Origin: Zhongshania marina
Lineage (GTDB): Bacteria > Pseudomonadota > Gammaproteobacteria > Pseudomonadales > Spongiibacteraceae
Direction of reading: 5' to 3'
DNA length: 64,000 nt
NCBI RefSeq assembly: GCF_002915595.1
Contig: NZ_PQGG01000019.1
Coordinates: 186,001 to 250,000 of the forward strand
The position numbers were made by a program, and so were the translations under genes. Below the pieces are notes generated by a model. That model was not told the origin of the DNA, made no database searches, and was given only the letters and a program-made list of their open reading frames with translations. Shown here piece by piece: positions 14,289 through 21,136 of this stretch. Numbering within the stretch: the stretch's first letter is position 1; each line of letters opens with the position of its first letter.

Positions 14289-15122
14289 TCAAGCGTGAAC
14301 TAATTTAGACGAACCGACAAAATCCTCTCTTGTCTTGGTCAATGGCTCAGGAATAAACCTAGCCGCTCCATTAACAGCAATTACACAGAGGCCCATTGTC
14401 AGCAAGGTCGCCGCCCAAATCATACCCTGACTGAATTCAGCATCAGACAGATGTAAGGCCACAATAATAGGTGCACCTAATCCGCAATTCGCACCCATCA
14501 TTGTAACGGGGAAGATTGCAAATAAACCTAGCAAACCAAAGGAGCTCGACACGCGCCGCCAGAGTTGAACCGCAAGCACGGTATATAAAATAACTTGTGT
14601 ACCCTCTAAAACGCCGATCACCAAAGGGTAATTCCAAATACGCATTACGTATGGGCCGTAATAGGTATAAACGCCCGTACCGGTCCCAATCATTTCAAAA
14701 ACACAAGACGCGGTAATTTCCGCCAACCAAATCAAAAACAAGGTAGATTTAGTCGCACGACCTTCATATAACATTTTGCCGGCATACAAGCAGGCAGAGG
14801 AATACAGAATCATGTAACCGCTATGAGTCCAATTCGGCTGCACAATTCCGAACGCCGTAAAGTGTGACCACATTGCGCCGGGAAGCCCATTGGCAACGTC
14901 GTAAAACCACAAATCAAAAGCAACGTCATACAAGGGTTCGATATACGCCCCGACACCCGCCGCCAAAACCGCAATGAAATAAAATGGCGTTCGCTGACGT
15001 AAGCCCATACGTACAGCAATAATGAGCATGATAAGAACAATGCCCCAACTCGCCCATGTAAAAACACTTTGCCAAAATAAATCTAGCTCACCGGCCATGA
15101 CCTCTGGAGGTACAAGACTCAT
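14289..15122 (-). CDS. Multi-pass inner-membrane protein, family not recognised
   Basis: 277 aa with seven or eight strongly hydrophobic helices (roughly 17-40, 47-66, 95-115, 125-146, 160-180, 195-215, 228-250) and short loops. No signal peptide, ATP-binding or catalytic motif stands out. Aromatic and acidic residues in the loops (EPLYDVAFDLWFYD near 62-75, NWTHSGY near 97-103) may line a pocket. An AAGGAG ribosome-binding site precedes the ATG. It lies 75 bp downstream of the metal-hydrolase gene on the same strand with no promoter-like sequence seen between, so I infer one operon controlled from the 16.2-kb palindrome. Function unknown. Confidence 0.8.
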   Translation of the reverse strand: MSLVPPEVMAGELDLFWQSVFTWASWGIVLIMLIIAVRMGLRQRTPFYFIAVLAAGVGAYIEPLYDVAFDLWFYDVANGLPGAMWSHFTAFGIVQPNWTHSGYMILYSSACLYAGKMLYEGRATKSTLFLIWLAEITASCVFEMIGTGTGVYTYYGPYVMRIWNYPLVIGVLEGTQVILYTVLAVQLWRRVSSSFGLLGLFAIFPVTMMGANCGLGAPIIVALHLSDAEFSQGMIWAATLLTMGLCVIAVNGAARFIPEPLTKTREDFVGSSKLVHA

Positions 15123-15197: not shown

Positions 15198-16070
15198 TTA
15201 TGCGGGTATAGTTTCCCGCGCCCGTTCAGCCATCTTATTCAGATCCAAAGTTTCTGAAGCGATAGTCAACACTTCCTCGCAACCTGCAGGTGCTTTGAGG
15301 TTTTTAGGGTTGTACCAAGGCGTACAAGCCCGCAAAATTCTAGGGGTGATGAAAAAGAACATACCGGAGTACGAGCTTAATTTGCGCAACATCGCCTTAG
15401 GCCCACGCTCCATACGACCGGCTTTTTTATCTTCCCGCTGCATATACTCGCTAAGCGGCACAGCAAAACCCAACAAGTGGAAAGTTGCCTTCATTATTCC
15501 ACCGACACGCCCCCAGTAGGTACCGTACAGTGCCTCAACAACATTGAACGCACAGCAGCGGTGTTCGAACTCTTCTGAAAGGTGCCAGCGCCATAGCGAC
15601 AAGGTAATTAAATCAACGTCATTGTCTTTTAAACGCTTATTCGCTTGCACAAGAAAATATGTAGCAAATATAGGACCAGCGGTCTCAAAACCTTCTGCGT
15701 AAAGCATCGCGTGACGCAGGCCGTATTCACGATCAAAACGCTCGTAGTCAGCCCGCAGCTTATCGGTGTACTTATCCATTTCTGGATAGTAACCCAAGCC
15801 TCTCACCATATCGTTAAACGCCATATGGGTTTTAGAGTGATTAGCTTCCTGCTTACAAAATAATTCACAATCTGCGTAGAGGTCTTCTCTATCCTCAGGA
15901 AGCAGTTTCTTAGACTTAGCTAAAGCACGTATTAAATACCCTTCCAACAAAGGAAGACCAATACTCACGGCGTTCCAAAACTGTGCCAGTTCAGGATCCT
16001 TAGGTATCCAATCAATCCTTGCTTTCGAAAAATCACACTCGATTTTGCGCGCTTCTGGTTTAATATTCAT
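15198..16070 (-). CDS. Putative metal-dependent hydrolase, ferritin-like (COG3687/PF10118 type)
   Basis: 290 aa, mostly helical, with two ExxH motifs (Glu75-His78 in KQEANH; Glu167-His170 in SEEFEH) plus acidic residues Glu43 and Glu126/Glu129. This is the pattern of a di-metal ferritin-like centre. It resembles the bacterial family annotated as predicted metal-dependent hydrolase, whose substrates are unknown. No signal peptide, so probably cytoplasmic or peripheral. The ATG has GAGGG 8 bp upstream. A 20-bp palindrome lies 111 bp upstream of the start (16181-16200) and is shared with three neighbouring promoters, implying co-regulation with the TonB receptor and the SnoaL-like protein. Confidence 0.8.
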   Translation of the reverse strand: MNIKPEARKIECDFSKARIDWIPKDPELAQFWNAVSIGLPLLEGYLIRALAKSKKLLPEDREDLYADCELFCKQEANHSKTHMAFNDMVRGLGYYPEMDKYTDKLRADYERFDREYGLRHAMLYAEGFETAGPIFATYFLVQANKRLKDNDVDLITLSLWRWHLSEEFEHRCCAFNVVEALYGTYWGRVGGIMKATFHLLGFAVPLSEYMQREDKKAGRMERGPKAMLRKLSSYSGMFFFITPRILRACTPWYNPKNLKAPAGCEEVLTIASETLDLNKMAERARETIPA

Positions 16071-16180: not shown

Positions 16181-16200
16181 TATTGACCTACAGGTCAATA
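16181..16200. promoter_or_regulatory. Palindromic operator A, upstream of the metal-hydrolase operon
   Basis: TATTGACCTACAGGTCAATA has perfect 9-bp arms around a 2-bp centre. On the minus strand TTGACC, 17 bp and TTGAAT form a plausible -35/-10 pair, so a bound repressor would block the promoter. Sites B, C and D have the same length and arm spacing. The size and symmetry suit a dimeric TetR-type repressor; that assignment is inference. Confidence 0.8.
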
Positions 16201-16642
16201 TAAGAAACTCAAAATACCGCTCGGTACATGAATCGCTAAATGCTTGATATTCAACACCAAAAACACCGCCCCAACCCTCAATTTAACTATATTGACAATA
16301 TTAACAATAAATACTCATATTTAGTATCAATACAAAATTAAAGAGCGCTTTGCACGAGCCGGAATTTTATTCTCTGGCAAGAAATAATCGAACGAACCGC
16401 AGCGCGGCGGAGATCACGCACTTGTGCGTGCGACCAACAGGAATCGTAAATGAGCGAGTTTTACGCATAAAGGAACGATTGAGTAGATCCTGTCCTTTAT
16501 GCCCAGTGGGTATTTATGCCCTGTGGGTACGCTAGCGAATCGAGCGCTTTGGCTACAATTTTGCCCACAATAAGCGATATACACGACGCTGGCAGAGGAT
16601 GAAATAAAATTGCGCAAAGATCGCTTGAAGCAATTTCCTGGA

Positions 16643-16669
16643 CAAAAAAAAGCCCAGCACAAGCTGGGC
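16643..16669 (-). terminator. Intrinsic terminator of the SnoaL-like gene
   Basis: GCCCAGC (16652-16658) and GCTGGGC (16663-16669) form a 7-bp stem with a 4-nt loop. On the minus strand it is followed by a run of eight T. It lies 27 bp past the stop of the gene at 16696-17442. Confidence 0.9.
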
Positions 16670-16695
16670 AAACTGCTCATAGAGCACCTAGTCAA

Positions 16696-17442
16696 TTACT
16701 TTTTCTTCCAGAACTTATTTGGTGCTGGAAGTACGCCCAACTGGATGGCCACGTCACGGAAATTCCAATACGTATACTCTCTAACAACCTTGCGGTCCTT
16801 ATAGCAATGGAAAGTCATGCCGCGCGTGTGTGTTGTCTTTCCTGTAGCAGGTAAACCCAAGAAATCGACATAGTGCTCAGACTTCCATACCCACTGCATA
16901 ACGCCCCACTCATCATAAGAATGATCAGCGCCCTCTAGCGTATCTTTTGTCCACATATCCCATTCAGCAGGCTGATATTGAGGGGGCATTTGCAAACGTA
17001 ACTGAGCGGTTCTATCACCCGCCAAACCGCCATCGTAACGAACCACATCAAAGTAATGTTTACCTACATTTGAATCTTTGTTAAACGGTAAAAACGCGTT
17101 ATACAATTCTTCTTTATCAGTAATAGTTTGGAACAGAGTGATATCTTCAAAAACGAAATCATCTGCATAGTAATGAATAATTCCGGCAGCCCCCTCATTG
17201 AAGAATGTATCAATCCAATCCTCACCGGTGGACATACCCATACGCCCCTTACCTTTAAACCCCTTAACGGAGTCATCCGCCTCTGCAGCCGAGGACATAC
17301 CAAACGCAACAGAAGGAGCCACACCGCCAACCATAATGGCCGCACCGGCCTTCTTAAGGAATGAACGGCGACCAGCCTTTTCACTCTCTTCTTTCGCTTG
17401 CTCCGCGAGCTTATGACCTTCTTCTAAATATCCAAGATGCAT
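16696..17442 (-). CDS. Tat-exported SnoaL-like (NTF2-fold) protein
   Basis: 248 aa. The N-terminus has an unusually long 24-residue lead, then a twin-arginine motif GRRSFLKKAG (Arg25-Arg26) and a hydrophobic stretch ending around residue 53, so it is probably exported folded to the periplasm. The remainder (about 70-240) resembles SnoaL-like/steroid isomerase-type NTF2 folds: a helical start (DWIDTFFNEGAAGIIHYYADDFVFED) and alternating strands. Substrate unknown; such folds bind small hydrophobic molecules. A GAGGT ribosome-binding site precedes the ATG, and palindrome B lies 40 bp upstream, linking it to the 16-19 kb regulon. A strong terminator follows. Confidence 0.72.
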   Translation of the reverse strand: MHLGYLEEGHKLAEQAKEESEKAGRRSFLKKAGAAIMVGGVAPSVAFGMSSAAEADDSVKGFKGKGRMGMSTGEDWIDTFFNEGAAGIIHYYADDFVFEDITLFQTITDKEELYNAFLPFNKDSNVGKHYFDVVRYDGGLAGDRTAQLRLQMPPQYQPAEWDMWTKDTLEGADHSYDEWGVMQWVWKSEHYVDFLGLPATGKTTHTRGMTFHCYKDRKVVREYTYWNFRDVAIQLGVLPAPNKFWKKK

Positions 17443-17481
17443 GTTTTTTACCTCAATTAATATCTTATGGTTATATATCTA

Positions 17482-17501
17482 TATTGACCTTAAAATCAAT
17501 A
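17482..17501. promoter_or_regulatory. Palindromic operator B, upstream of the SnoaL-like gene
   Basis: TATTGACCTTAAAATCAATA keeps the left arm of site A exactly; the right arm has two changes. On the minus strand TTGATT, 18 bp and TATAAC give a good promoter overlapping the palindrome. It lies 40 bp before the start codon. Confidence 0.78.
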
Positions 17502-17624
17502 CCAATAATCCACCAATAAAAGGCCGCTGTCAAATGAAGATAGATTGCTAATTCAGATAAATATACGTAAATATTTAAGCGCTTGAAATATCTTTAAATT
17601 TGCTTTCAATTGCCTGCACTAAAT

Positions 17625-17656
17625 ACAAAAAAGGCGACAAGCAAAAGCTTGTCGCC
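17625..17656 (-). terminator. Strong intrinsic terminator after the pseudogene
   Basis: A perfect 10-bp stem (GGCGACAAGC at 17633-17642 and its complement at 17647-17656) with a 4-nt loop is followed by TTTTTT on the minus strand. It begins 24 bp past the pseudogene stop, so it was probably the original end of the secreted-protein transcription unit. Confidence 0.9.
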
Positions 17657-17680
17657 CTGTAACACTAACAACCTAAACTC

Positions 17681-17844
17681 TTACAAATCCAAAGGCTGAG
17701 TTAAAAGTGGTATTCCTGGAACGACAGAATTACCACCCGAGCCATTAAGGGCCTGAGTCAAGATCGTCCCCCCCCCATGAAAAAGTCTATAATTCCAGCA
17801 GGGTTTTCAAGCAACACAACAAAAAAACCAAATCCCCTATAAAA
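17681..17844 (-). pseudogene. Broken paralogue of the secreted Gly-rich protein, frameshifted in a poly-C9 run
   Basis: Read on the minus strand, 17844-17776 encodes a segment containing VVLLENPAGIIDFFM and glycines. From 17767 a different frame encodes TILTQALNGSGGNSVVPGIP and LLTQPLDL, then TAA. The two frames would join if the nine-C run at 17768-17776 had one more base. The pieces match the C-terminus of the intact neighbour (NPAGLLDFLTSGG ... VPRIPLVNQPL). An in-frame TGA at 17845-17847 and the absence of a start show that the N-terminus is also lost. It is a decayed tandem duplicate; a sequencing slip in the homopolymer could explain the frameshift but not the missing N-terminus. Confidence 0.75.
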
Positions 17845-17925
17845 TCAGAAATACAGGCATTTAAGACACACCAACCAACATTAGCTAGCTCAGAATACCC
17901 CAAGCTAGCCAACACAAAACATCTC

Positions 17926-18417
17926 TTACAACGGCTGATTTACCAAGGGGATGCGTGGTACCAGCGATATATCAGGCATAAGCAGCACACCCCCACTTGT
18001 TAGAAAGTCAAGTAGCCCAGCTGGATTACTAAACAAAACCTCTGTTAAAGGAATAACATCAAAAGCTACGGGAAGCGCCAGGTGCTGAACTGGACGTATA
18101 AGTGACTCAGGGTTTCCAGAAATTGGCCCCACCAAACCGCCAACCTGCCCAAGACCCGCCAAAGTTTTCTCAATAGGCAAATCAATTGCCGTCAAACTCA
18201 TAGGCAACTCACCCAAAACAAATGGCAAAAAGGTACCCAAAACCGGCAAACCGCCAACCAACGGAAGGGAGCCGCCACCACCTAAACCACCCGTTGAAGG
18301 AAGACCACCACCCAGTAAACCGCCAATAATAGGCAAATCTTGGGCACTAGCCATACCAACCATGCCACTCAAAATAGCTGACGCAGCCAATCTCGTTAAC
18401 ATTTTATTTTTCTTCAT
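17926..18417 (-). CDS. Small secreted glycine/leucine-rich protein, unknown function
   Basis: 163 aa from the ATG at 18417, chosen because GGAG lies 8 bp upstream; an in-frame GTG at 18426 overlaps that site. A clear signal peptide ends MASAQ (about residue 26). The mature part is low-complexity at first (repeated GGL and GGG between 30 and 60) and then carries alternating hydrophobic segments rich in L, P and V. It lacks cysteines and recognisable catalytic motifs. A structural, surface or lipid-binding role is possible but not shown. It is divergent from the TonB receptor, carries its own palindrome C 45 bp upstream, and is followed by a broken copy of itself. Confidence 0.72.
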   Translation of the reverse strand: MKKNKMLTRLAASAILSGMVGMASAQDLPIIGGLLGGGLPSTGGLGGGGSLPLVGGLPVLGTFLPFVLGELPMSLTAIDLPIEKTLAGLGQVGGLVGPISGNPESLIRPVQHLALPVAFDVIPLTEVLFSNPAGLLDFLTSGGVLLMPDISLVPRIPLVNQPL

Positions 18418-18461
18418 AACAACCACTCCAAAAATTTGATTACCAATTCAGTCTACCCACC

Positions 18462-18481
18462 AACTGACCTACAAGTCAATA
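18462..18481. promoter_or_regulatory. Palindromic operator C, upstream of the secreted-protein gene
   Basis: AACTGACCTACAAGTCAATA differs from site A at three positions and keeps the 20-bp length. On the minus strand TTGACT, 18 bp and TAGACT form a possible promoter over the site. The start codon is 45 bp downstream. Confidence 0.72.
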
Positions 18482-18696
18482 ACGAATAATATTTGTTGCG
18501 AATAACTGGTAATAATTGTGACCCTGTTCGCACCACACCGCTATCTAAGTACCACTCAATAGTAATTTCAAGACGGAAAATTTAAGTCATTACACAAAAT
18601 AAACACCCAACCCACTGATAAATAAAGAGTTAAAATAAATCCCTCTTATTTCTTCATAAAATATGGAACTTACTCTTTTGATTTGACACACCCTGC

Positions 18697-18716
18697 TATT
18701 GACTCTAAGATCAATA
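18697..18716. promoter_or_regulatory. Palindromic operator D, upstream of the TonB receptor
   Basis: TATTGACTCTAAGATCAATA differs from site A at four positions, one of them in the 2-bp centre. It contains TTGACT, a possible -35, on the plus strand, but no convincing -10 follows. It lies 120 bp before the receptor ATG. Confidence 0.7.
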
Positions 18717-18835: not shown

Positions 18836-21136
18836 ATGAAAAACAACTACATAATAACGTTGTTATCGACGTTACCCTTTGTTCTAGGGGGAATGGCGTA
18901 CGCGCAAGACGACATTACCCCTACTAATAAATCAAAAAGGAGCAGTAACCAACTTGAGGAGGTTGTAGTTACGGCCCGTAAAAAAACGGAAAATTTGCAA
19001 GATATTTCTGCAAGTTTGACCGCACATACAGGCGCAGCCCTAGACGCTATGGGTGTTGCCGACATCAAGGATTTAATGAATGTAACACCCGCCCTAACCG
19101 TTACGGAGATGGCGGCATATAGCTTAATATTCATTCGTGGTGTAGGCTCCGACTCATTTCAGGGGCCAATAGACTCAAGTGTCGCAACATATCTAGATGG
19201 CTTATATATAACACTGACATCGAACCAAGCCCAATCTTTAGGTAATGTGCAATCAGTTACAGTGCTAAAAGGCCCCCAAGGTACTCTCTATGGTCGTAAT
19301 GCGGTAGGTGGTGCGATTGTAGTCGAAACAAAGAAACCCAGCTTTGAAGAAGTACAAGCAAACATCACCGTTGAAGGCGGGAATTACAACCTTCTAAAAG
19401 GTAAAGTTCATTTATCTGGCCCTGTAGGTGATAATTTCGCTTTAGGTATTTCCGGACTGTACACAAACCGGGAAACGTATATGATTTATACGCCCGACCC
19501 ATCGCAAAAGCACTTAGATTACGATGATCGCGGCGTTAAATTTGAAGCTCGCTTAGCCCCAACCGACTGGCTTGAAGTAAACGCAAGCCATTATAAGATC
19601 CGCCATAGTTCTGGCGACTCTGCCCCGTTAACCAACGACACCCCCTCGCCCCTGTTCGCATCAGTAATCACTGGGAATCCCGACCCCTGGGAAACTGGCG
19701 TAGGAATAGAAGTTTTTACAGAGATGGAGTCTCAGGCATCCAAGCTTGAATTTGATATTACAAATCAGTATTTCAATACCAAGGCGATTTTCGGACACTC
19801 AGAAGCCACGAGCGGCGTTTACTGGGATTACGATATGGCCTATGAAAAATTACTGATCATCGAGGCGATCCCAAATACATCTGACACCGACTCCATCGAC
19901 ATCTCGTTCACCAGCTCTGACTGGGGACCATCGTGGTTAAGCTGGATTGCCGGTATCTATATTGAAGACACTTACAAAGATCAAACAACACCGATTTACG
20001 TTGATGCCCTAACACTAGGCCAACAGCTTATCGGACTCGACCCTAACCTCCTTAACGGTTTAGTTGAGTCGTTAGGGTTGGGAGCGCTTGGGCTTACTGG
20101 GCTGCCAGAAAATCCTGTTCACCTTTTACTATATGGAGGTGTAGATACCGACGCAAAAGCAGCTTTTGCTGAATTTGACATAGATATTACCGATTACCTA
20201 TCTATTAAGTTTGGTGGTCGTTACTCTGACGAAACCCGAGTAATTCCGACTTCTACAGTAGACGCGCGAATTCAAAACCTACCAATCCTAGGCACCACCG
20301 ATTGGGTAAGGGCATTTGATTATGAGGAAGATAGCGCCACGTGGACTGACTTCACCCCCAGCTTTGGTATCGACTTCGACTTATCTGATGATGCTATGGT
20401 CTACTACAGTTACACCACAGCATTTAAGAGCGGTAACTTCAACGGACTTAACATCAATGCACCCCCATCTAGAATTGAGCCTGAAGAAGCAGAGTCACAT
20501 GAGGTTGGTATCAAGTCAGATTGGCTAGATGGTAGCCTTCGATTAAACGCTGCCCTGTTTTCCACCACAGTTGAAAATGGCCACGCTCAGATCCTATCGC
20601 TTACAAGCGGCGGTGTAACTCGCCTAGAAAATGCGGCGGAATACACCATCGATGGTGCCGAACTAGAAATGACCTACAACACTCCGATTGACGGATTAGT
20701 AGTGACTTTCTCTGGCACTTGGCTTGATGGCTCATATGACGACTATGAATGTACTAACTTCGATCCAGATACAGGGCTAGAAGCTACTTATGACTGCTCA
20801 GGGAACACCACTATTCGAACTGCCGACTTCTCCGGTGTAGTGGATGTGAGCTATCGCTTTGATATAGGCCGTCTTGAGAATGAACTTGGTTTAGGTGCTT
20901 ACCACAACTCTGGTTTCTGGTTCGACCCAACCAATAACGTTCCTGAAGAAGCGTACACGAAAATTAACGCAAGATTTAGCGTTCGGGACACCAAAACGAA
21001 CATGAAGCTATATGGTTGGGGCTCAAACCTTACCAATGAAGTTAGCCACATGCAGCGTTTCCGCCAAGACTTTGGTATTGGTGAGTCTTACGCTCGCCCA
21101 CGGATGTGGGGTGTAGGTCTTGAATGGGAATACTAA
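18836..21136 (+). CDS. TonB-dependent outer-membrane receptor
   Basis: 766 aa with a signal peptide ending AYAQ (about residue 24), a TonB box EEVVVTA at 41-47, a plug domain (about 50-165; FIRGVGSD, VTVLKGPQGTLYGRNAVGGAIVVETKKP) and a long beta-barrel closing on WGVGLEWEY. It belongs to the broad class used by marine and aromatic/steroid-degrading proteobacteria to import large or hydrophobic ligands. Sequence alone does not give the ligand, and no Fur box was seen. Palindrome D upstream groups it with the hydrolase, SnoaL-like and secreted-protein genes. A strong terminator follows. Confidence 0.92.
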   Translation: MKNNYIITLLSTLPFVLGGMAYAQDDITPTNKSKRSSNQLEEVVVTARKKTENLQDISASLTAHTGAALDAMGVADIKDLMNVTPALTVTEMAAYSLIFIRGVGSDSFQGPIDSSVATYLDGLYITLTSNQAQSLGNVQSVTVLKGPQGTLYGRNAVGGAIVVETKKPSFEEVQANITVEGGNYNLLKGKVHLSGPVGDNFALGISGLYTNRETYMIYTPDPSQKHLDYDDRGVKFEARLAPTDWLEVNASHYKIRHSSGDSAPLTNDTPSPLFASVITGNPDPWETGVGIEVFTEMESQASKLEFDITNQYFNTKAIFGHSEATSGVYWDYDMAYEKLLIIEAIPNTSDTDSIDISFTSSDWGPSWLSWIAGIYIEDTYKDQTTPIYVDALTLGQQLIGLDPNLLNGLVESLGLGALGLTGLPENPVHLLLYGGVDTDAKAAFAEFDIDITDYLSIKFGGRYSDETRVIPTSTVDARIQNLPILGTTDWVRAFDYEEDSATWTDFTPSFGIDFDLSDDAMVYYSYTTAFKSGNFNGLNINAPPSRIEPEEAESHEVGIKSDWLDGSLRLNAALFSTTVENGHAQILSLTSGGVTRLENAAEYTIDGAELEMTYNTPIDGLVVTFSGTWLDGSYDDYECTNFDPDTGLEATYDCSGNTTIRTADFSGVVDVSYRFDIGRLENELGLGAYHNSGFWFDPTNNVPEEAYTKINARFSVRDTKTNMKLYGWGSNLTNEVSHMQRFRQDFGIGESYARPRMWGVGLEWEY

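Follow-up and report, generated by a model that had tools for sequence, protein, structure and literature searches.

A probable set of LuxR/HapR-type operators upstream of uptake and oxidation genes in Zhongshania marina

The palindromes and the genes behind them

The window analyzed here is a stretch of 64,000 nucleotides from Zhongshania marina (assembly GCF_002915595.1, contig NZ_PQGG01000019.1, positions 186,001 to 250,000). Within 2.5 kb it carries four 20-bp palindromes, A to D, each upstream of a different gene, as an earlier note on this DNA had described. Judging from sequence comparisons, all four very likely act as operators for a single regulatory family, a conclusion that is strongly supported since such sites precede the orthologous genes in related species and not their paralogues. 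Operator A (16181-16200) is a perfect palindrome, TATTGACCTACAGGTCAATA, located 110 bp before the gene of a PF10118 protein (starting at 16070, minus strand) and thus upstream of the operon that this gene forms with a membrane-protein gene. Operator B (17482-17501) lies 39 bp before the gene of a SnoaL protein with a predicted twin-arginine translocation (Tat) signal (17442, minus strand), and operator C (18462-18481) 35 bp before the gene of a secreted-looking Gly-rich protein (GTG at 18426, minus strand). Operator D (18697-18716) is found 119 bp before the gene of a TonB-dependent receptor (18836, plus strand) and covers a -10-like hexamer. Counted against TATTGACCTNNAGGTCAATA, A has no mismatch, B has two, and C and D have three each.

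This repetition is not expected by chance, as the earlier note had also stated: 0.03 sites with at most three mismatches are expected per window, and four were reached in none of 100 shuffles. The whole genome (4.13 Mb, 46 contigs) holds six sites at this threshold, four of them within the 2.5-kb stretch, compared with three for the reversed-pattern control. If the density of the other two sites is taken as the basis, the probability of finding four in one given 2.5-kb stretch is about 1e-13, a value uncorrected for the number of stretches. The palindrome is therefore rare, coding or random DNA having been compared through the window shuffles alone.

The PF10118 protein (290 amino acids, 15198..16070, minus strand) is annotated as a 'predicted metal-dependent hydrolase'. 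It belongs to its Pfam family with 143.5 bits (cut-off 33.2, E 1.2e-41), and the residues E43, E75xxH78, E126, E129 and E167xxH170 are invariant across 11 sequences. Its structure model is all-helical (predicted local distance difference test score, pLDDT, 83.6), and the top Foldseek matches are mostly R2, R2lox, stearoyl-ACP desaturase, ADO and CmlI, all weak (best E 0.054); a search of the PDB by sequence gave no match. The earlier note had read a 'metal hydrolase' here; the model and the conserved residues make a ferritin-like di-metal oxygenase or oxidase more likely than a hydrolase. The second gene of the operon (14289..15122, minus strand) encodes a conserved polytopic membrane protein of 277 amino acids that has no Pfam or NCBIfam match and whose structure model (pLDDT 58) is too poor for a structure search.

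The SnoaL/NTF2-fold protein (248 amino acids, 16696..17442, minus strand) is related to TIGR02096, the ketosteroid-isomerase-related proteins, which it matches with 68.6 bits for a cut-off of 97.1; the PDB search by sequence gave a single weak match, to a polyketide cyclase (E 0.011). The Gly/Pro/Leu-rich protein (166 amino acids, 17926..18426, minus strand) belongs to no family, and ATG at 18417 is a likelier start than the GTG at 18426. It has relatives in other genomes, one of which shows an operator 40 bp upstream (locus L228). Beside the intact gene, positions 17680-17800 (minus strand) hold the remnant of a second secreted Gly-rich gene, a C-terminal part that resembles the form of genomes G005, G009 and G016, in two parts that lie in different frames around a run of eight C. 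The TonB-dependent outer-membrane receptor (766 amino acids) is encoded at 18836..21136 on the plus strand. In two relatives, the gene of a COX3-like protein and a small partner gene are found near TonB and HapR genes (G015, L228:9005-9887; G012, L078:12085-12965).

It had also been proposed that the arms of A, B and C overlap a -35/-10 pair. A consensus promoter scan found 15 promoter-like sites in the region, near the 13.7 expected by chance. One pair (18479-18450) overlaps C, another (18683-18711) has its -10 inside D, and a third (17533-17505) lies just upstream of B. The scan gave no match at A, where by eye TTGACC-17-TTGAAT begins within the operator. In G011 and G016, the operator of the PF10118 promoter yields TTGACT-17-TATATT, so that binding would cover the -35 and the spacer. 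Overlap of operators and promoters is on the whole plausible but weak.

Conservation of the sites and extent of the regulon

Two descriptions of the motif were used. A matrix was built from the four sites of the window and their reverse complements only, and served to scan the 600 bp upstream of orthologues in other species; a degenerate consensus was built jointly from these sites and those of relatives. G000 denotes the genome of the window, the other G numbers the other genomes compared and the L numbers the locus stretches fetched. The matrix groups exclude G000 as the source of the matrix, as well as G017 and G003, whose PF10118 or membrane-protein genes are near-identical; a TonB fragment split by a contig break (G005:C41), two TonB paralogues and a membrane-protein relative of 35% identity (G016:C20) were left unscored, the last of these being covered by the comparison with the consensus.

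Altogether, 18 of the 19 upstream regions of orthologues reach at least 18 bits. These include all six regions of PF10118 orthologues (18.2-28.2 bits), all six of SnoaL orthologues with 69-90% identity (19.3-26.6 bits) and six of the seven of TonB orthologues (18.2-23.7 bits, G015 having 11.3). By contrast, none of the three PF10118 paralogues (at most 6.0 bits) or of the 20 TonB paralogues (at most 8.7 bits) has a site, and thus 0 of 23 exceed 9 bits. The four SnoaL copies of 64-67% identity also lack one (8.8-12.0 bits), the line between them and the orthologues being narrow and drawn after the upstream regions were known; wide identity gaps part orthologues from paralogues for PF10118 (65 vs 40%) and TonB (65 vs 36%). 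The general gene control (137 genes, with a median of 4.4 bits and a 90th percentile of 21.7) suffers from contamination, its loci having been chosen for having sites, and paralogues were therefore used as the cleaner control. The conservation before orthologues on which the earlier note had made its proposal depend is therefore observed.

With the degenerate consensus, a site stands within 600 bp upstream of all nine closer PF10118 relatives (65-100% identity, the gene of the window included), six with no mismatch and three with one; that of G001 is at -550 and is common to the TonB gene. The same interval holds a site in none of the three PF10118 paralogues of 40% identity. In the PF10118 promoters of G000, G003, G005 and G009, the 20-bp site is kept and the upstream flank looks, by eye, unrelated. 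Where the membrane-protein gene lies apart from the PF10118 gene, it has its own site in G001 (23.2 bits) and G011 (22.8 bits) and a weaker one in G016 (17.4 bits) and G015 (14.7 bits), and has none in G012 (7.6 bits), where it is positioned behind a HapR-like gene; copies behind a PF10118 gene have no site of their own. Moreover, one site serves both the TonB gene and the Gly-rich/PF10118 gene set in G001, and in G011 the divergent SnoaL and membrane-protein genes have a single site between them.

The limit to a purely local regulon of five genes did not hold. From its sites, the predicted regulon is larger and includes, in relatives, a monooxygenase operon, AtuA, aldehyde dehydrogenase/epoxide hydrolase and acyl-CoA/lipid genes. 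On contig C19 of the Z. marina genome, far from the window, the gene of one HapR-like protein (HapR-A, see below) lies beside genes for lipid synthesis (PlsC-HAD, wax-ester synthase/DGAT, lipase), an aldehyde dehydrogenase and an epoxide hydrolase. This cluster also encodes an AraC regulator, a thiolase, a FadB-like protein, an acyl-CoA ligase, a FadR-like TetR, an enoyl-CoA hydratase, a short-chain dehydrogenase/reductase (SDR) and a biotin-dependent carboxylase/acyl-CoA dehydrogenase operon, the families having been assigned through relatives. Counted by mismatches to the degenerate consensus, sites stand before the aldehyde dehydrogenase gene (two), in the divergent SDR/carboxylase promoter (three) and before the lipid operon (three). 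The aldehyde dehydrogenase gene is also preceded by a site with at most two mismatches in G003, G005, G009, G011, G016 and G017, so that aldehyde dehydrogenase/epoxide hydrolase genes with a site are found in seven genomes, that of Z. marina included. The apparently far higher conservation of the carboxyltransferase gene than of its neighbors was an artefact of comparing different genomes.

Furthermore, in G001 an operon for a soluble di-iron monooxygenase (two PF02332 subunits, an MmoB-type coupling protein and a reductase) starts 47 bp from a site, and in G011 a site stands at the 5' end of an operon for enoyl-CoA hydratase and AtuA (match 3e-157). Among the loci read, without a genome-wide search, G011 and G002 were the only genomes with AtuA and G001 the only one with the monooxygenase. 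The related cluster also contains carboxylase, acyl-CoA dehydrogenase and enoyl-CoA hydratase genes. A conserved site is likewise found for X203, a small secreted-looking protein of no family encoded behind molybdopterin-binding and 2Fe-2S genes, in G000, G017 and G012; at L226:7566-10954, the genes for the molybdopterin-binding and 2Fe-2S subunits are followed by the operator and X203.

The candidate regulator and its distribution

The earlier note had supposed a TetR-type repressor encoded elsewhere. This is probable, and the regulator can be named further: two divergent TetR proteins of the LuxR/HapR/SmcR type are the probable regulators, singly or together, an assignment well supported by profile and PDB matches. 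In Z. marina they are HapR-A (C19:97161-97790) and HapR-B (contig C12:2321-2935). Two proteins of this genome match the NCBIfam model NF040929 (LuxR/HapR/OpaR) with 96.3 and 84 bits, the next TetR having 37.8. It is also the best model for two TetR proteins encoded beside sites in G011 (89.3 and 93.0 bits; next-best family 46.9 and 45.4). None of these proteins (84-96 bits) reaches the equivalog cut-off of 350 bits. A PDB search with a profile of seven proteins of the genus returned LuxR, SmcR, OpaR or HapR as the first 18 of 19 chains (95.9-110 bits), followed by YvdT (51.5 bits). In addition, the TetR_N domain (PF00440) is above its cut-off of 24 bits in the three proteins of relatives that were scanned (48.8, 32.0 and 34.3 bits). 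A KstR-type control of steroid catabolism, the first idea suggested by TIGR02096, was rejected; two HapR-like proteins score 19-21 bits against the KstR model.

HapR-A shares 47-87% identity with eight other aligned proteins, HapR-B among them, and a tree of 20 proteins of the genus and four from outside supports clades A and B, one copy of G012 lying outside both. HapR-B appears to be the better candidate for the binding paralogue because G009 has a B copy only and yet has good sites. Regulator genes are located within about 6 kb of target genes in five of the ten carriers described below (G001, G011, G012, G015 and G016). Among distant HapR-like genes in the order (15 of 390 genomes), 14 of 15 are without an upstream site (at most 7.7 bits) and one has a weak one (14.6 bits).

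The genus set comprises 18 genomes, of which ten carry HapR-like genes called at E <= 1e-15. Relatives of the membrane protein (E <= 1e-20) occur in all ten carriers and in none of the eight others, with 50% identity in G016 and 74-97% in the other nine. Relatives of the TonB receptor (65-100% identity) are found in nine carriers, PF10118 relatives in eight and SnoaL relatives (E <= 1e-20; that of G003 is of the 64-67% type) in eight, none of them in the eight others; TonB paralogues of 32-36% identity are present in both groups. This co-occurrence has Fisher p values of 2e-5 to 1e-3, in tests that ignore phylogeny. Similarly, carriers have on average 8.6 sites per genome with at most two mismatches to the degenerate consensus, versus 2.9 in non-carriers (p = 0.002, in a rank test with the same limit).

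Among non-carriers, G002 has a PF10118 gene cut to a 64-residue match (L081:10100-10381) that is 100% identical to G016 and lies behind an intact operator, and its acyl-CoA ligase is split into two open reading frames. It looks as if regulator and pathway were being lost together, and such a recent loss would explain sites without a regulator.

Proposed mechanism, alternatives and meaning

It is probable, in our view, that operators A to D belong to a TetR repressor related to LuxR, HapR and SmcR (HapR-B and/or HapR-A) that is released by a ligand and governs a scattered uptake and oxidation regulon. A dimer of this regulator would bind TATTGAyytNNarrTCAATA. Since the outer TTGACY of the operator may double as a -35, or the operator may cover the -10 or start region, binding should repress. 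A hydrophobic ligand, possibly a hydrocarbon of alkene or isoprenoid type or a lipid made from it, would enter the pocket and free the regulator. Its release would switch on the TonB receptor, the secreted Gly-rich protein, the Tat-exported SnoaL protein and the di-metal enzyme with its membrane partner, and elsewhere the genes for oxidation, epoxide and aldehyde conversion, branched acyl-CoA catabolism and lipid storage. The compound itself would be taken up through the TonB receptor, oxidized by di-metal enzymes, carried through epoxide and aldehyde steps and degraded as branched acyl-CoA, any surplus being stored as lipid. The best reading, we infer, is a system that takes up and oxidizes an alkene- or isoprenoid-like compound and is switched on by de-repression. 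Such a compound leads over steroid as the substrate, for which genes were not searched, because of the AtuA, monooxygenase and epoxide hydrolase genes found.

Ligand-released TetR repressors of lipid catabolism, of the FadR/YsiA and PsrA types, have local palindromic operators and are encoded near their targets. The system described here resembles them in that palindromic operators overlie the promoters of its uptake and acyl-CoA genes and in the proximity of regulator and targets, but the candidate regulators score best as LuxR/HapR-like, unlike the FadR/YsiA-like TetR (PF08359) of the catabolic cluster. With the Atu pathway and the soluble di-iron alkene/phenol monooxygenase pathways, it shares the AtuA operon (G011) and the PF02332/MmoB/reductase operon (G001) that start at sites; the window has a PF10118 protein instead. 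AtuA (G011, G002) and the carboxylase genes of the cluster invite the comparison with the Atu pathway, the substrate class being ambiguous by sequence.

The closest parallel is the Vibrio regulon of LuxR, HapR, SmcR and OpaR, whose master-regulator box is printed as TATTGATAAA-TTTATCAATA (PMC3323551). The candidate regulator is of TetR type, like those of Vibrio, and resembles them in its N-terminal arm and helix-turn-helix; in both systems the targets are scattered and the palindrome is a 20-bp inverted repeat with the arms TATTGA...TCAATA (PMC3323551). Compared with the 20-22 bp dyad TATTGATAAATTTATCAATA, the length and the 12 arm bases are identical and the inner core differs. For the 21-bp site of V. 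harveyi LuxR, changes at G5, A6, A8, T15 and A17 are the most damaging (PMC2628434); four of these positions fall in the shared arms if they are counted from the first T of the box, as in our own alignment, A8 belonging to the core that differs. One site of the Z. marina genome (L227:5238-5257, before a gene of 353 amino acids) has two mismatches to the printed Vibrio box versus five to the motif of the earlier note. The system differs from the Vibrio regulon in that its regulators are below the equivalog cut-off, most carriers have two paralogues, the targets look like uptake and catabolic genes and the regulator is often encoded near them.

Four other explanations were weighed against ligand-released repression by a HapR-like protein. 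That the palindromes arose by chance or are a dispersed repeat between genes is scarcely credible: they are short, and genomes of other genera also commonly hold a few matches with at most three mismatches, but there are just two further sites in the genome of Z. marina, and the sites persist upstream of orthologues but not of paralogues, with inner bases that vary and flanks that have diverged. It would not be very surprising, although we think it unlikely, if the LuxR/HapR-like protein activated these promoters instead of repressing them, given that Vibrio LuxR does both (PMC2628434); the overlap of the operators with predicted -35/-10 or start regions favors repression, even if promoter predictions are near chance.

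Somewhat less likely is that a different protein binds these operators, themselves genuine, for example the FadR/YsiA-like TetR or the AraC-type protein of the catabolic cluster. The genes of both belong to the C19-type cluster and are near some sites, and in G011 their distances from the SnoaL gene are only about 12 and 20 kb; furthermore, G002 has no HapR-like gene but keeps an AraC gene together with good sites. However, HapR-like genes are nearer to the TonB, SnoaL and PF10118 genes in the five carriers named above, the motif matches the LuxR/HapR box in length and arms, and in G009 the sites remain with the AraC gene gone from its usual place. A perfect 20-bp palindrome is also more in keeping with a TetR dimer than with an AraC protein and its direct repeats. 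A further improbable view, to which we give a little less weight still, is that the HapR-like proteins are cell-density (quorum) regulators here too and that the uptake genes are quorum-controlled as in Vibrio. Family resemblance and the similar operator speak for it, but the regulator genes adjoin catabolic and uptake targets, as is usual for ligand-responsive local regulators, and the proteins are far under the NF040929 cut-off.

Several observations nevertheless weigh against a HapR-like repressor acting at these operators. The inner operator is YYT..ARR here and not TAAATTTA, so that A8, among the five most damaging LuxR positions (PMC2628434), is C or T. NF040929 also matches proteins at E 0.001 in 11 of 14 control genomes, and thus it is the score, not the match as such, that speaks for the family. 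A regulator gene with the same site in its own promoter, as the earlier note had envisaged, is seen in just two of 20 cases (600 bp upstream), one of them 582 bp away, and simple autorepression is therefore not general. Both regulators are missing from G002, which has eight sites and keeps three good ones, possibly bound by another protein, and the cluster encodes a FadR/YsiA-like TetR (PF08359) and an AraC regulator. Other genera also have sites with at most three mismatches (ten in G037, seven in G053 and six in G027, one of these with a single mismatch), and G027 has no HapR-like gene at E <= 1e-25.

The statistics and the target genes call for similar caution. The Fisher and rank tests take no account of phylogeny, the site counts of carriers (3-13) and non-carriers (0-8) overlap, and sites between divergent genes in relatives count for both. 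The C19 sites are weak, with two or three mismatches, and one with three lies inside the FadB-like coding gene, which means that weak matches also arise by chance. The monooxygenase and AtuA are each linked to a site in a single relative, and neither was seen in the stretches of the Z. marina genome that were read, no genome-wide search having been made. Moreover, the fold match of the PF10118 protein is weak, with no Foldseek match at E 0.001 or better.

A TetR regulon is in itself of a known kind. What is apparently new is that a LuxR/HapR-type regulator and its box would govern uptake and catabolism, and that five orphan genes are linked; among the literature matches listed, which were available in part, none describes a HapR-type regulator or such a regulon in Zhongshania or Spongiibacter. 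The palindrome, the regulator family and the orphan gene set are thereby joined into a single testable regulon; several genomes of these bacteria are from oil samples. A regulator and operator type best known from Vibrio quorum sensing would thus be found in apparent catabolic control, offering a route to the ligand of LuxR/HapR-type regulators and to the function of PF10118 proteins.

More tentatively, the LuxR/HapR branch might include a ligand-responsive sensor of hydrocarbons or isoprenoids in marine oil-associated bacteria that kept the arms of the Vibrio quorum box, an idea that we regard as possible rather than likely. We know of no natural class of small molecules for Vibrio LuxR/HapR. 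If the idea is true, the natural ligands of the branch may be hydrophobic lipids or hydrocarbons, and a catabolic repressor would have been re-used later for quorum control.

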